The notes under the pieces were generated by a model, which worked only from the letters and a program-made list of their open reading frames with translations, was not told the origin of the DNA and ran no database searches. A stretch of DNA of 34,925 bases. Origin: Fibrobacter sp. Lineage in GTDB: Bacteria; Fibrobacterota; Chitinivibrionia; Chitinivibrionales; Chitinispirillaceae. The position numbers and the translations under genes are program-made. Shown here one piece after another: positions 5,003-25,416 of the stretch. Each line of letters starts with the position of its first letter. Position 1 is the first letter of the stretch. The DNA is taken from assembly GCA_012728995.1 (NCBI GenBank), contig JAAYEB010000061.1, forward strand, positions 1-34,925, read 5' to 3'.

Positions 5003-6712
5003 TTATTTGTAAATATATACAAGCTTGTTTTCTTCCTGTTGATTCATATAACTCAGTCTGATCCAGGAATCAGAACGGATCACAGAGCAAACCCTGACTT
5101 CATCGATAATGCCGGTAAAATTCCTGGAAAATTTCATATTGCCATGGGTTCCAATTGTAGTGTTTTCACCTGCTCCGGCATATTGAATTGGGACGGAAGC
5201 TGTTTCTGAACAGCATAACTGTCCGTTTATAAAAAAGCGATGTTCCAGTGTCTGACCGTCAAATTGATATACCAGAAAGTTCCACCCGGTTTTTTGCAGA
5301 AATATTCCAGATCCAAGGAACTCATGAGTCACAGTGTCTGGTGCAGTTGGATCAAATAAATAAGCACCATGGGTTCCCTTACTATTCCAACTGTCATCCA
5401 TACGGATCAGTGCAGCATCCCCGATAGAGATCACCTCACTTCCAATTATATCAGGCGTATCAAGAAGTGCCCATGCAGACAGTGTTACAGTGCTCAACTC
5501 TCCCAGTAAGCTGCTTATTCTGATATAGTCGTCATCATTGCCATGAAATCGTTGGGCTCCACCCAGAATACCACCTGTATCTGTTACATGACCCATCTTG
5601 ACTCCGGAATGGTTATTGGCTGTAGCATCATCACAACCCTCAGAAAGATGCCAGACTGCAGTGAATCCATCCGCAGTATCGAAAACATTACCAGTTAAAA
5701 TATTTTGCATGGAATCGGTATTGCCCCAGAACATGCGTAGACTCTGAGTGCTGTTGTTTCCATACACTGTATCAACAAGTATCCAGACAAGAGCCTCACC
5801 ATTTTCACGATCCCAATGTTCAATTGCAACAGGTAATGGCCTGCTATTTTGATTTGTAATTACAAGGTCGTGACCATCAGATGTAAATTCGTTTAAATTG
5901 ATGTTAAAATCTGCGAGTCGTAACGCTAAAGGGAAGTTGTAGATATCCTCATCAATAGCAGCTCCATTTGATGTGGTATTGAGAAACAGTGTCTGATGAA
6001 ATATTCCGCTTTCAGGCAGTATCTGTGTTGTCTGATCACTAAGAACTATGGCAGAATTTGATAAACGGAGATCTGATACATCTGAATCAGTTGAAGATAA
6101 ATAGATTGCAGGCAGTACTCCTGCGGGTACGTGGTCTATTACTGCCCGACCAGCTCCAGGTTTAACATAAGCATGGTATTCGGTACCACTTAGATATACA
6201 AATTCTACCGAGTCATGAAAATTGTCTGGAAGGATAATTTCGAGGGTACCTGGTTTATGTAATGTCTGATTCTCGAGAAGAAGAGTATCCTCTGTAAAAG
6301 AAATACCCATACAAAGAAGAGAGGTACGACTTGTTTGATTATGTGCCTGAAGATTATAAGTGTTTGTAATACTCAGAGTGACAGAATAATAACCATTACT
6401 GTCGGTGATACCCATTGGTACTTCCGCATTATCTTTATTGGGAACATAATCTTGAGGTATGAATTTAACTTCAGTTTGTATACCTGGTGAACCATCCTTA
6501 TGGATAATATGACCTGTTGCAACAAAGGTGTTTGGTAAATCGGTTCCACCACCAGCATTTGTTGGAGAGTTACATTGAATTATGCCCATACTTAAGACTA
6601 TAAGAATACAAAACAAGGGTATTAAAGCATGGTAAACAGGCTTGAAATATGCAGTCCAGAAAATATCCTGATTTGGTTTGTTGAACTGTTTTTCTGTAGA
6701 ATGATACTGCAT
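5003..6712 (-). CDS. Surface lipoprotein-like protein with DUF2341 and LamG-type lectin domains
   Basis: 569 residues from the ATG at 6712, which has AAGGA 9 bases upstream; a TTG at 6727 opens the frame slightly earlier. A hydrophobic stretch (ALIPLFCILIVLSMGIIQCN) ends in Cys, suggesting a signal peptide with a permissive lipobox. Residues about 60-160 look like a carboxypeptidase-regulatory-like beta fold (ATGHIIHKDGSPGIQTEVKF, DSNGYYSVTL). Residues about 255-340 are DUF2341 (FPLALRLADFNINLNEF, LVWILVDTVYGN, MFWGN). Residues about 350-565 are a LamG / concanavalin-like jelly roll (FTAVWHLSEG, GIIDEVRVCSVIRSDSWI). Such proteins bind carbohydrate or act as adhesins. It starts 16 bases after the TIGR02147 regulator, so the two are surely co-transcribed. 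Confidence 0.8.
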   Translation of the reverse strand: MQYHSTEKQFNKPNQDIFWTAYFKPVYHALIPLFCILIVLSMGIIQCNSPTNAGGGTDLPNTFVATGHIIHKDGSPGIQTEVKFIPQDYVPNKDNAEVPMGITDSNGYYSVTLSITNTYNLQAHNQTSRTSLLCMGISFTEDTLLLENQTLHKPGTLEIILPDNFHDSVEFVYLSGTEYHAYVKPGAGRAVIDHVPAGVLPAIYLSSTDSDVSDLRLSNSAIVLSDQTTQILPESGIFHQTLFLNTTSNGAAIDEDIYNFPLALRLADFNINLNEFTSDGHDLVITNQNSRPLPVAIEHWDRENGEALVWILVDTVYGNNSTQSLRMFWGNTDSMQNILTGNVFDTADGFTAVWHLSEGCDDATANNHSGVKMGHVTDTGGILGGAQRFHGNDDDYIRISSLLGELSTVTLSAWALLDTPDIIGSEVISIGDAALIRMDDSWNSKGTHGAYLFDPTAPDTVTHEFLGSGIFLQKTGWNFLVYQFDGQTLEHRFFINGQLCCSETASVPIQYAGAGENTTIGTHGNMKFSRNFTGIIDEVRVCSVIRSDSWIRLSYMNQQEENKLVYIYK

Positions 6713-6728
6713 AAATATTTCCTTCAAC

Positions 6729-7610
6729 TTATCTTGTCCAGGATTGATCTGGAGTACTCTTCATCACTGGGAATAGCTGCACATTTAAAGCATAAACAAT
6801 ATTGCAGTTTTCCCCCTTTTCATTACACTCCAGAAATTCTTTGCGTAACTGGTCTACTTTTGTGCAAAATTGTTCATATTTTTCCCGACTAATACCCTTT
6901 ATAGACATTGAAATATGGCGATCTTCCATGGATAACGTCTCCATTGCATGGAGAGACGATTCTATATAAAACCTTTTTACATCATTTACAACAGCATGAG
7001 GCATGCTGGAGTAAGTGATTACTTCCGGGGTATTTGCAGATCGGAAACCTCCATGTTCAGTATCTTGTGTGATAAGCTTCCAGCCTATAAGCTTATCAAC
7101 TATCCGTCGTATCTCTGCCAGTGGAATAGAGCAGTGGAGAAATGAACGGGAGATCTCTTTTACAGATCCGACATAGCCCCGGCTCTCTATATACTCACGA
7201 ATGAGAGGATATTTCCAGGAACTAAAATATTCTGCTTGGTTGTTTGCAACAATTTTGTTAAGATTCTTTTCTCTGTATTGTGCTAATTTTTTCAGTATGG
7301 TAACTTTCATGTCACCTTTTGTTGCATGTTCCTTCTGGACCAGCAGTGAAAAATACTGAGCCTGATCACCAGAGAGTTCCAGCGCGGTAATAAATCCCTG
7401 GACATGTTTGAGAGCTAATTTTTTACGTTTTGACAGTATATCAGAAAAATATGCTTGTGATCCGACTCCTGCCAGTTTGATAAAAGTGTTTTGTGTCAGT
7501 CTGTATCTTTTTGCATAATCGTACCATGCTCTTAGATAATCAACATAATCATCAAAAACAAAAACAGGTGTAGAGAGTCTTTTCTTTTTCTGGATATTGT
7601 GTTTTGCCAT
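6729..7610 (-). CDS. TIGR02147-family regulator-like protein
   Basis: 293 residues, basic, without signal peptide. The N-terminus has the hallmark VFVFDDYVDYLRAWYDYAK, followed by LTQNTFIKLAGVGSQAYFSD and a RKKLALKHVQGFITALELSG segment. This is the profile of the TIGR02147 family (DUF4423-like C-terminal part), a paralogous family best known from Fibrobacter succinogenes and also from Bdellovibrio. The N-terminal part resembles a helix-turn-helix fold, and the middle (VKEISRSFLHCSIPLAEIRR) looks like a winged helix. Function is not established; members typically precede genes for lipoproteins or surface proteins, as here, so a regulatory role for the gene downstream is inferred. No strong ribosome site precedes the ATG. 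Confidence 0.82.
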   Translation of the reverse strand: MAKHNIQKKKRLSTPVFVFDDYVDYLRAWYDYAKRYRLTQNTFIKLAGVGSQAYFSDILSKRKKLALKHVQGFITALELSGDQAQYFSLLVQKEHATKGDMKVTILKKLAQYREKNLNKIVANNQAEYFSSWKYPLIREYIESRGYVGSVKEISRSFLHCSIPLAEIRRIVDKLIGWKLITQDTEHGGFRSANTPEVITYSSMPHAVVNDVKRFYIESSLHAMETLSMEDRHISMSIKGISREKYEQFCTKVDQLRKEFLECNEKGENCNIVYALNVQLFPVMKSTPDQSWTR

Positions 7611-8335: not shown

Positions 8336-8381
8336 TTGGTAGCGGGGGCTGGATTTGAACCAACGACCTTTGGGTTATGAG
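8336..8381. repeat. attL: orphan 3' part of tRNA-fMet
   Basis: 46 bases identical to 25022-25067. On the minus strand it corresponds to the anticodon, T-arm, acceptor 3' strand and CCA end of the tRNA. To the right the match stops abruptly (agcaaag here, cccaacg at the intact gene), so this copy has no 5' half and is not a functional tRNA. Confidence 0.93.
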
Positions 8382-8444: not shown

Positions 8445-8465
8445 CCGGTACAAAACCGGTACAAA
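8445..8465 (+). repeat. Two CCGGTACAAA repeats near the left end (candidate integrase arm sites)
   Basis: Two copies of CCGGTACAAA begin at 8445 and 8456, spaced 11 bases and located about 65 bases inside attL. The same word in the same orientation is repeated many times inside attR. Short direct repeats inside both ends of a tyrosine-integrase element are the usual layout of arm-type binding sites. Confidence 0.7.
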
Positions 8466-16643: not shown

Positions 16644-16966
16644 ATTAACCTCATTAACCCTCATTAACCTTTTGGCCTTTAAGCTTCAAAAAGGGCATTT
16701 TTTGGGTTAATGGGGTTTTTGGTTTTTTTGTCCATGGGTTAACGGGGGTTAACAGGGTTAACGTTTTCTAAAAACTTTCCTATGTATCTTTTTTTTGTAA
16801 AACTTTTTATAAATGATTAACCTCATTAACCCTCATTAACCCAAAAGCTTAATATTGCTTTATATGAGCTGGAAATGGCATTTTTATTTATATATAAATC
16901 TTGCTTTTTTATAATCTAATTAACATCTCATTAACCCCGTTAACCCAATTGCCTTAAATGGGTTAA
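16644..16966. repeat. TTAACC iteron cluster, candidate replication origin
   Basis: Thirteen copies of TTAACC or its complement GGTTAA in 323 bases. Plus-oriented copies start at 16645, 16654, 16664, 16817, 16826, 16836, 16931 and 16940. Minus-oriented copies start at 16705, 16737, 16747, 16756 and 16961. Within groups the spacing is 9-10 bases, nearly one helical turn. A 26-base unit is identical at 16644-16669 and 16816-16841. Groups face each other as inverted repeats. With a D5-like primase-helicase in the same element and AT-rich DNA nearby, this is the best origin candidate. Confidence 0.7.
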
Positions 16967-19844: not shown

Positions 19845-22334
19845 ATGAAAACCTGCTATGCTAACAGAGGTAACCAAACATGGTTAAATACAATTAAGAA
19901 AGCAGGCCATAATAATATGAAAAACGATATTTACAAGCTACACAAGACAGGGTTTAACCTGGTTCCAATTGCCGATAAAACCAAGCGGCCGGGTGTCTCA
20001 ACCTGGAGGCAATGGACGCAAGACAAACAAACCGAATCTGATATTAACAATCTGTTCACAGGTAATTATTATGGAGTCGGTTTAATTTGTGGCCAAGTGT
20101 CTGGTATTGAGGTCCTTGATATAGATTGCAAATATGATCTCACAGGTACATTATTCGAAGATTTACTTACAATCGTTTTTGGCCGAGATAATAATCTTAT
20201 TAAGAAAATAGCTTGTCAAAAAACTGTTTCAGGAGGATATCATCTGATATATAAGTGCAGTTCGATTGCAGGGAATCAGAAGCTTGCAATCAGAGCAGCC
20301 ACCGAGCAGGAGTTAAGTAAATATCCGAATCGAAAGCAATATGAGGTAATTGAAACTCGCGGTGAGGGAGGTTACATTTGTTGCGATCCTACACCAGGGT
20401 ATAAGTTCGTTACTGAACAATGCGGGTTTGATTTTTCTTCGATTTTCGACCTGAAGGAAATTACACCTGAGGAGCGTGTAACACTGATTACGTCTGCAAA
20501 AGCACTTAACCAGGCTGTTGCGCCTGTTAATGCTGTGAAAAATGAACCAGACCAGAAGCCAAATTCAGAATGGATAATCTCACCCTTAGATGATTATAAT
20601 GATAAGGTTTCTGATCAAGATATGCTTTCACTGCTGCAAAAACATAAATGGACAATCACAAAGCAAACCAGTAAAATTATTCACCTGGCCCGGCCTGATA
20701 AAAAAACAGGAACCTCTGCGACTTACGGGTATCACAACAAGTGCTTGTACGTGTTCACTTGTAGCGATTCTGTATTTGCTGGACCGCGAGGCTACACACC
20801 TGTTCAGGTACTGGCATTGTTAGAATATAATGGGGATTTTTCAAAAACTGCAAAGGATTTATTAAATAAAGGCTTTGGTAAAAAACACCAGTTATCCATA
20901 CCTTGCAATACATCAAATAACGATACTTCAGGCAGTCAGGTTAAAGAACCGTTAAAATTAACAACTGATCAATCTGGAGAGCTGCAAATCTCTGATGCAC
21001 TTTTAGCACAATATGTTGTTGATCAAATCAAAGATCGGTTCAGGTATAACCGGTCTATAGAAAGTTTTTGCATTTATAAAAACGGTAGATTTCAACTTGA
21101 CGAAAAAAAGCACTTTACAACTATTGTTCAGAAGTACATAAGGCAGATGCGCCTTGAAATTCATGATGCTTTTCCTTGGCTTGAGTTCAAAACTAAGCAG
21201 AGTATTGATAAAACTTTTATCCGATATTTGAATACAAAAAAAACACGTGAGGTTATCGAGCGAATTAAAGATACACCAGAAATTGAGGTTTTAGAAAAAG
21301 AACTCGATCGAGACCCTGATTTGTTAAACTGCAAAAATGGTTTTATAAATTTGAGGTCTGGGAGCTTTTCCCACCATACCCCTGATTGCTTATTCAGCAA
21401 GGTTTCAGGAACAGGCTACGACCCTAAAGCCACCTGTCCGAAATGGAAAAATTTTCTGGCCGAAATTATACCAGATCAAGAAATAAGAAATTATTTACAA
21501 GTATTAGTCGGGTATAGTTTAACAGGAGATACAAGCGGACAAGCACTAATAATCCTTTTTGGATCTGGCGCAAACGGTAAATCTGTTTTTGTCCATATTA
21601 TGGAAAAGTTAGCTGATGAATATTATAAAACCCTTCAGCCTGATGCACTGATTTATAAATACCAAAGCACTTCTGGTAATGCCACACCTGAAATTGCAGG
21701 CTTGCGCGGAGTTCGTTTTGCTGTCAGTCCTGAAGTTCCCGAAGGTAGACTTGATGAAAGCCTTGTAAAATATTTAACAGGAAGTGATCTTGTAACCGCG
21801 CGGTATTTATACGGTAAGCCCTTTACCTTTCGCCCGTCGCATAAGATTTGGTTAACAAGTAATTATCTGCCAACAATCAGAGGGAGCGATTACGGGATCT
21901 GGAGAAGAATCCACGTTATACCTTTTAGTGTTCAGATACCAGAAGAGAAGCGGATACCGTTTACTGAGCTGTGCAATGATTTAATAACAGAATTACCCGG
22001 AATACTGAATTGGGCTATTGTTGGAGCAAAGAAATACTATGCTGAAAAAAGGCTTAAGCCGCCTGAAGGTGTTACGAAAGCCTGTAGCGAATATAAACGA
22101 AGTGTTGACACAATTGAAACCTTTATAACTGATCAGTGTATAATAAGCGATTACATTTCTATTAAAGCAAAGGATCTTTACAAGGCTTATTCTGAATGGT
22201 GTCATGATAACAATGAGTATCAATTTAAATCACGAGATTTTTATAAAAATGTAGAATTGAAGGGTTTTGAGAAAAGAAACGCTGCAAAAAATCATGTACA
22301 CTTTTTCGGAATTTCCCTAAAGGAAGAATTTTAA
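19845..22334 (+). CDS. Primase-polymerase / SF3 helicase replication protein
   Basis: 829 residues from the ATG at 19845; the ATG at 19917 (residue 25) also fits, since the domain begins GFNLVPIADKTKRPG. N-terminal bifunctional primase-polymerase domain (about 28-215): YGVGLICGQVSGIEVLDID with Asp92 and Asp94 as metal ligands, SGGYHLIY with His133, and GEGGYICCDPTPGY. A linker follows, then a D5-N-like region. The superfamily 3 helicase starts near residue 540 and has Walker A GSGANGKS (about 573-580), AGLRGVRFAVSPEV, and IWLTSNYLPTIRGSDYGIWR. The last 60 residues form a winged helix (IKAKDLYKAYSEWC). Such P4-alpha / poxvirus-D5-like proteins recognise iterons, unwind and prime. It probably fires the TTAACC origin in the left arm. 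Confidence 0.92.
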   Translation: MKTCYANRGNQTWLNTIKKAGHNNMKNDIYKLHKTGFNLVPIADKTKRPGVSTWRQWTQDKQTESDINNLFTGNYYGVGLICGQVSGIEVLDIDCKYDLTGTLFEDLLTIVFGRDNNLIKKIACQKTVSGGYHLIYKCSSIAGNQKLAIRAATEQELSKYPNRKQYEVIETRGEGGYICCDPTPGYKFVTEQCGFDFSSIFDLKEITPEERVTLITSAKALNQAVAPVNAVKNEPDQKPNSEWIISPLDDYNDKVSDQDMLSLLQKHKWTITKQTSKIIHLARPDKKTGTSATYGYHNKCLYVFTCSDSVFAGPRGYTPVQVLALLEYNGDFSKTAKDLLNKGFGKKHQLSIPCNTSNNDTSGSQVKEPLKLTTDQSGELQISDALLAQYVVDQIKDRFRYNRSIESFCIYKNGRFQLDEKKHFTTIVQKYIRQMRLEIHDAFPWLEFKTKQSIDKTFIRYLNTKKTREVIERIKDTPEIEVLEKELDRDPDLLNCKNGFINLRSGSFSHHTPDCLFSKVSGTGYDPKATCPKWKNFLAEIIPDQEIRNYLQVLVGYSLTGDTSGQALIILFGSGANGKSVFVHIMEKLADEYYKTLQPDALIYKYQSTSGNATPEIAGLRGVRFAVSPEVPEGRLDESLVKYLTGSDLVTARYLYGKPFTFRPSHKIWLTSNYLPTIRGSDYGIWRRIHVIPFSVQIPEEKRIPFTELCNDLITELPGILNWAIVGAKKYYAEKRLKPPEGVTKACSEYKRSVDTIETFITDQCIISDYISIKAKDLYKAYSEWCHDNNEYQFKSRDFYKNVELKGFEKRNAAKNHVHFFGISLKEEF

Positions 22335-24743: not shown

Positions 24744-24854
24744 CCGGTACAAAAACCGGTACAAAAACCGGTACAAAAACCGGTACAAAACCGGTACAAA
24801 ACCGGTACAAAATATTAACTTAAAGGCTTAAACCGGTACAAAGTCGGTACAAAT
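24744..24854 (+). repeat. Array of CCGGTACAAA repeats near the right end (candidate arm sites)
   Basis: CCGGTAC followed by A-runs begins at 24744, 24756, 24768, 24780, 24791, 24802 and 24833, plus the variant TCGGTAC at 24844. Spacing is 12, 12, 12, 11, 11, 31 and 11 bases. All copies share one orientation, the same as the two copies near attL. It starts 31 bases after the integrase stop. Probably integrase or excisionase arm sites. Confidence 0.75.
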
Positions 24855-25021: not shown

Positions 25022-25099
<78 letters not shown>

Positions 25100-25123: not shown

Positions 25124-25210
25124 TGGTGAATCGAACTTTTAAAGTCCGTTTGCTCGTTGTATATAGCCCAACGAGCTACTCCCGATTTCACATCGGGACT
25201 CCACCCCGCG
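25124..25210 (-). pseudogene. Scrambled second copy of tRNA-fMet
   Basis: Read on the minus strand, the first bases (CGCGGGGTGGAG) repeat the intact tRNA start, and the upstream flank gatcattct is repeated as well. The D-arm is replaced by a TCCCGAT/ATCGGGA hairpin, then GTAGCTCGTTGGGCT returns. The anticodon loop is replaced by TATATA, with CTCGTTG/CAACGAG forming a 7-bp hairpin. A T-loop-like TTCGATTC and ACCA follow, but acceptor and T-stem cannot pair. Non-functional, possibly a relic of an older insertion. The rest of 25100-25415 holds no gene. Confidence 0.6.
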
Positions 25211-25416
25211 ATCATTCTTATTTCAAATTATATCAGCATTTAATATCAATTCTTATGCCAATATTGTATTTCTCTTAGCGAGATTTTTAATATACCTTTT
25301 TGCGAATCTAACCACAAGGAAAAAGATTAATTAAAACATAAACATCATCTTATACCCCCATAGATGCGAAACGCGACAATGACTTAATCGTCTAAATTCA
25401 AAAATACAAATTATGC

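Follow-up and report, generated by a model that had tools for sequence, protein, structure and literature searches.

Direct-repeat arrays at the two ends of a tRNA-Met-bounded element of Fibrobacter sp.: predicted arm-type sites of the element's own integrase

Which protein reads a short word that stands ten times, always in one orientation, just inside the two ends of a bacterial element? The question is raised by a stretch of 34,925 nucleotides from Fibrobacter sp., called here, in its entirety, the window. An exact direct repeat of 46 bp, matching the 3′ part of a tRNA-Met gene, bounds an element of 16.7 kb within it (Table 1); the preliminary description of this DNA was thus right to speak of element ends. 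The left pair of words begins 63 bases inside the core, and the right array stops 168 bases short of it. Beside the intact tRNA-Met gene, at 25165-25218, lies a second, interrupted copy of the tRNA 5′ half and its flank, in which AGCCCAACGAGCTAC and CTCCACCCCGCGATCATTCT are repeated; this is perhaps the scar of an earlier integration.

The word itself, CCGGTACAAA, occurs in nine exact copies in the window: seven on the right, starting at 24744, 24756, 24768, 24780, 24791, 24802 and 24833, two on the left, starting at 8445 and 8456, and none elsewhere. One variant, TCGGTACAAA, starts at 24844, and all the copies, the variant included, stand on the + strand. An exact-word search thereby confirmed the tally first reported (seven exact copies and one variant against two, in one orientation). 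Its span, 24744-24854, begins correctly; the end is one base too far, as the variant ends at 24853. Spacings of 11-12 bases, as first reported, account for most of the right-hand steps (12, 12, 12, 11, 11, 31, 11) but overlook the one of 31. The further suggestion that bound proteins would share one DNA face is correct in part: at 10.5 bp per turn the rotational positions are 0, 51, 103, 154, 171, 189, 171 and 189 degrees; that is, the last five copies are in phase, within about 35 degrees, and the first three are rotated away.

The distal block of the right array consists of six identical words with spacers of A only. Left pair and proximal right pair agree in their 11-bp step and in CGGTACAAATTC; the basic plan therefore appears to be one pair per arm, with six extra copies on the right. 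Chance origin of the right array is excluded: when the 309-nt right arm was shuffled 20,000 times, no shuffle contained more than one exact copy. A role as promoter or terminator found no support; four of the eight scored terminator-like stem-loops fall inside the array, as a product of the repeated ACCGGT.

Table 1. Coordinates of the element's ends, repeats and named genes in the window
Feature	Position	Strand	Basis
attL: 46-bp core copy, tRNA-Met 3′ part	8336..8381	.	exact direct repeat
Left (P′) arm pair, predicted: 2 exact CCGGTACAAA, 11-base step	8445..8465	+	exact-word search
Primase-polymerase / D5 helicase replication protein	19845..22334	+	D5_N, Prim-Pol, phrog_1156
Excisionase-like helix-turn-helix protein, 61 aa	23384..23569	+	HTH_17 0.00038 (fails Pfam's cut-off); phrog_66 0.0016
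Tyrosine integrase, 354 aa	23649..24713	+	PF00589 5.9e-15, phrog_1; modelled N-terminus
Right (P) arm distal block, predicted: 6 exact CCGGTACAAA, steps 12, 12, 12, 11, 11	24744..24811	+	
Right (P) arm proximal pair, predicted: exact CCGGTACAAA + TCGGTACAAA, 11-base step	24833..24853	+	
attR: 46-bp core copy	25022..25067	.	exact direct repeat
tRNA-Met (CAT), integration target, intact	25023..25099	-	ARAGORN, Rfam RF00005

One way to understand the arrays is to look to the gene that ends 30 bases before the right one, the integrase. R203, K228, H290 and Y324 are conserved throughout an alignment of 21 integrases, and R293 almost throughout; these we take to be the catalytic residues of the tyrosine recombinase family. 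The AlphaFold model of the whole protein opens with three strands and a helix (E2-7, E10-17, E26-33, H36-52), and residues 1-61 modelled alone give the same order, three strands then one helix. This is the topology of an arm-binding domain as set out in the excerpted text of PMC8138268, and the modelled N-terminus has it. Full-length lambda integrase chains are the top matches of the whole model in both Foldseek and VIA-align; the latter aligns model residues 1-332 with lambda 14-351 (Z 18.3; rmsd 14.8 over 307 residues). So large an rmsd is presumably due to a different placement of the domains. The model of the 61-residue N-terminus, compared with the PDB in isolation by the same two programs, gave no significant or meaningful match; arm-binding domains were absent from the matches, which speaks neither for nor against the assignment.

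Three features of a lambda-type att site are present: a tyrosine recombinase with its catalytic residues, a modelled arm-binding domain, and a word that recurs in the two arms, clear of the core. The repeats are very probably arm-type sites, as predicted from sequence, of the element's own lambda-type tyrosine integrase (Int). In this perspective, the N-terminal domain of Int would grip CCGGTACAAA in the arms, and the other two domains would hold the tRNA-Met core; a bend in the DNA that separates arm from core would join them, and a tetramer would bridge arms and core. The bridged tetramer would carry out integration and, with the small excisionase, excision. The basic set would be the pairs 8445/8456 and 24833/24844. 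The six distal copies would have arisen from that set, probably through tandem duplication; they would provide redundancy or load Int locally, and would add no new step.

Comparison with related integrases bears on this reading. Within the order, 16 of 40 genomes yielded 35 integrase matches at E up to 1e-40; the class-level search covers the same 40. The comparison uses the window and 32 of the 34 other matches, the two dropped (G026:C189 and G039:C62) being cut off at the contig start; G157:C9, a match of a further search, stands outside it. Searches with single-sequence patterns of the integrase found one weak archaeal locus and none in viral contigs; an alignment as query succeeded. The relatives carry other words at the same spot, immediately to either side of the int stop; in loci with a visible target, these fall between int and the 3′ end of a tRNA. 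L050, 58% identical over the alignment, has GTTACCACAAA four times; L053 has a ACCACTACAAA-like word four times, and L058 a CCACCACAAA-like word five times, two of them inverted; L057, L054 and L074 have two copies each of GTGACTACAAAA, GTCACTATGAAT and GTGTGAAGACG, respectively. The L054 integrase (6447-7526) contains one internal TAA in its reading frame, and may therefore be inactive or misassembled.

Among 167 genomes of the phylum a tandem pair of CCGGTACAAA occurs in one, the window's own. Absence of the repeat from otherwise similar elements had been named beforehand as a finding that would speak against arm sites. The exact word is indeed absent from them; since they bear a different word at the same place, its absence does not refute the reading.

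Tandem pairs near the int stop (at least 10 matching bases at a lag of 10-13, between -60 and +110 of the stop) were found for 23 of the 33 integrases (the window's is among the 33); of 2594 control windows of the same size from the same loci, 70 passed. The search zone was set after the first loci had been seen and the relatives are not independent of one another, so that p-values for these counts are only indicative. The other 10 of the 33, with no pair at that threshold, count against the arm-site reading. Both att repeats could be found in four relatives (L062b, L074, L070 and L067). In the first three the other arm repeats the word without change of orientation; in L067 a diverged word is repeated there, by eye, at a copy count below the threshold. 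L062 (contig G001:C141) has, near 58.2-60.6 kb, a single 46-bp att repeat at which two integrases, oppositely oriented, meet; apparently two elements share one target.

Several of these loci combine the parts of the system in different ways, and this allows a closer view of what the word follows. L062a and L068 have the same word, with integrase N-termini 87% identical and the rest of the protein 51%; L062b and L074 likewise share a word, with figures of 92% and 49%. L062a and L062b, conversely, have the same 46-bp att repeat and different words; their N-termini are 31% identical and the rest 70%. The word thus follows neither the catalytic half nor the target. Relatives of the excisionase-like protein were found by tblastn in 18 related loci (19 rows, L062 being present in both orientations), and their identities in the three comparisons are 73%, 75% and 32%. 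As judged from these sequences, then, the word follows a module made up of the Int N-terminus and the excisionase. The shuffled pairs cannot part Int from Xis, as the excisionase moves with the Int N-terminus.

A second perspective would assign the word to the other member of that module. That is, the repeats would be operators of an excisionase of the Xis/Cox/Apl kind, which occupies direct repeats, one turn apart, in head-to-tail order and bends the arm in preparation for excision. Excisionase operators with about this spacing are known from phage 186, for which the extracts from PMC7498355 give five at attP and, at pR-pL, seven; the window's repeats, too, are spaced by about one turn. The excisionase-like gene lies just upstream of int, and its product varies together with the word in the shuffled pairs. 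Four observations make this explanation unlikely all the same. Classical excisionase sites are confined to one arm, whereas here, as in three of the four complete relatives, both arms carry the word. No exact copy lies near regulatory or replication genes. L052 and L054 have the same word and N-termini 98% alike, but excisionases only 59% alike. Finally, other repeats in L053, L052 and L056, with a period of 10 bases and situated between the arm pair (or its place) and the core, are better candidates. Such 10-base-period direct repeats are seen immediately downstream of the arm pair, or of its place, in L052, L053, L055, L056 and L100, for example GATGTAACTT, AGATGCAATA and GGAAAAGACA, and are candidate excisionase sites. 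In the window itself, a search for a further direct repeat between right array and core (period 9-15, at least 6 matching bases) found none, nor did a simple pattern search reveal IHF-like sites in either arm.

The presence of the word in both arms and the L052/L054 case thus favour Int as the reader. Broader comparison is less telling. Word similarity was correlated with protein similarity for 24 integrases, namely 22 of the 33 (11 having no clear word) together with L100 and L102: the partial rank correlation is 0.21 for the N-terminus and 0.23 for the catalytic domain, and in a reduced set the N-terminus gives 0.19 against 0.13 for the excisionase. These are weak correlations, and the N-terminus does not stand out among them. 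The window and L050 tell against the arm-site reading, with N-termini 60% identical and only six of nine word letters in common. On balance, the designation ‘arm-site array’ is upheld by the position of the repeats, their occurrence in both arms, the equivalent pairs in relatives, and a word that appears to track the Int N-terminus (with Xis) over the catalytic half.

The element also encodes a Prim-Pol/D5 protein, and multi-copy direct repeats of 11-12 bp resemble iterons; the arrays, the six-copy block above all, might then be replication iterons bound by the primase-D5 helicase. This is very improbable. The exact word is found only at the element ends, with no copy near the rep gene, and only one of the four complete related elements with arm pairs (L070) has a D5 homologue within its ends. 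A separate cluster of TTAACC at 16645-16966 (13 copies, eight forward and five reverse, several in 9-10-bp steps) sits upstream of the rep genes, where open frames are few, and is itself the likely replication origin of the element. Directly after the D5 protein, a 78-aa frame at 22337-22573 matches parts of phage primases (phrog_864, 7.1e-05) and looks like a split-off or duplicated piece of primase-helicase. The remaining genes of the element are mostly unnamed.

What is left to account for is the number of copies. The preliminary description had proposed comparing array length among relatives, and the window's eight proves to be the largest of the 23 integrases counted, all of them with a word and all from the set of 33 (copies with at most one mismatch near the int stop): it is followed by 5, 4, 4, 4, 3 and 3; 14 integrases have two, one has a single copy and one has none. 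The zero belongs to L055, whose pair lies just outside the counting zone. Reversed words, as a control, gave two copies in all for the 23 integrases. Tandem repeats were also scanned for at 113 integrase ends, of which 96 had sufficient sequence, and the window again ranks first.

A lambda Int tetramer has four arm-binding domains, and most of the ten sites could therefore not be used at once; that a single tetramer could not make use of eight copies is a point against arm sites. It also weakens the original proposal of a cooperative, filament-like excision complex, which is not borne out: most relatives have two sites near int, the phasing is imperfect, and a tetramer brings only four arm-binding domains. 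Redundancy, local loading or neutral expansion would suffice to explain ten sites.

Given arm sites, the six-copy block may simply be a neutral expansion of a functional pair by slippage, a possibility that falls only a little short of even. In its favour are six identical words with A-only spacers, and most relatives have only two copies. Against this, more than two copies are found in close relatives as well (L058 with five, L050 and L053 with four each), and their arrangements are in part other than plain tandem units; this hints at some selection for extra sites. A bolder proposal, and an unlikely one, is that the distal block serves as a loading platform, collecting Int in cis beyond the four molecules of the tetramer and so dosing the bias between integration and excision; array length would then be an evolvable dial for directionality and stability, and the lengths of two to eight among relatives would be its settings.

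The window's word also turns up beside a distantly related integrase, and this speaks for arm sites. A scan of viral contigs for the tandem pair gave 12 stretches. L089 and L090 have it near an integrase gene's 3′ end; of the remaining ten, most resemble coding repeats when inspected by eye. The L089 phage integrase and the best query are 26.6% identical over 207 residues. At L089 the last codons of the integrase frame contain the word twice; some 170 bases on comes another exact copy, the third, with CCGGTCACA after it. Between the pair and the third copy is a stretch that looks tRNA-like by eye, and in which ARAGORN called no tRNA. Twelve other proteins of the window's element have no significant relative at the L089 locus (best E 0.43).

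More generally, the lineage yields well-delimited att sites of the lambda type with fast-changing words, and natural shuffles of the Int N-terminus and excisionase against the catalytic half. Such a set could be used to learn how arm-binding domains read DNA, and whether the number of arm sites matters.

The arrangement as such is known biology, and the expanded copy number, eight against two, is its sole notable point. Literature searches on tandem arm sites of satellites and on swapped domains turned up nothing directly useful; the arrays are not claimed to be unpublished. Lambda Int is heterobivalent in the excerpted account of PMC4880445: an N-terminal domain for the arm sites is joined to a core-binding and catalytic part, and five arm sites flank the core, away from the cleavage sites. 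The window shares this plan, has sites on both sides of the core, and encodes an Int whose best structural match is lambda's; it differs in having ten sites, split eight and two, and another word. In the mycobacteriophages CrimD and Pixie (Cluster K), the predicted arm sites are pairs of 11-bp repeats around the core, and in the CrimD group the word differs where the Int N-terminus differs; Pixie has six predicted sites, called an ‘unusual array’, around a tRNA core (sections of PMC3203893). Sites are fewer in both, and the CrimD pairs are mutually inverted; the likeness drawn here is one of arrangement. ICEMlSym-R7A likewise has several sites of one consensus, though they number five and read TGKTGGTATC; all five, in an attP of 283 bp, are needed for efficient integration by IntS, as the excerpt of PMC11963761 puts it. 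The operators of phage 186 Apl resemble the window's repeats as one-turn direct repeats at attP, in five copies; in the portion of PMC7498355 cited above they are also found at the lytic and lysogenic promoters, whereas the window's exact word is confined to the two element ends. The window's ten sites exceed the counts of lambda, ICEMlSym-R7A and Pixie; in kind they are the same.
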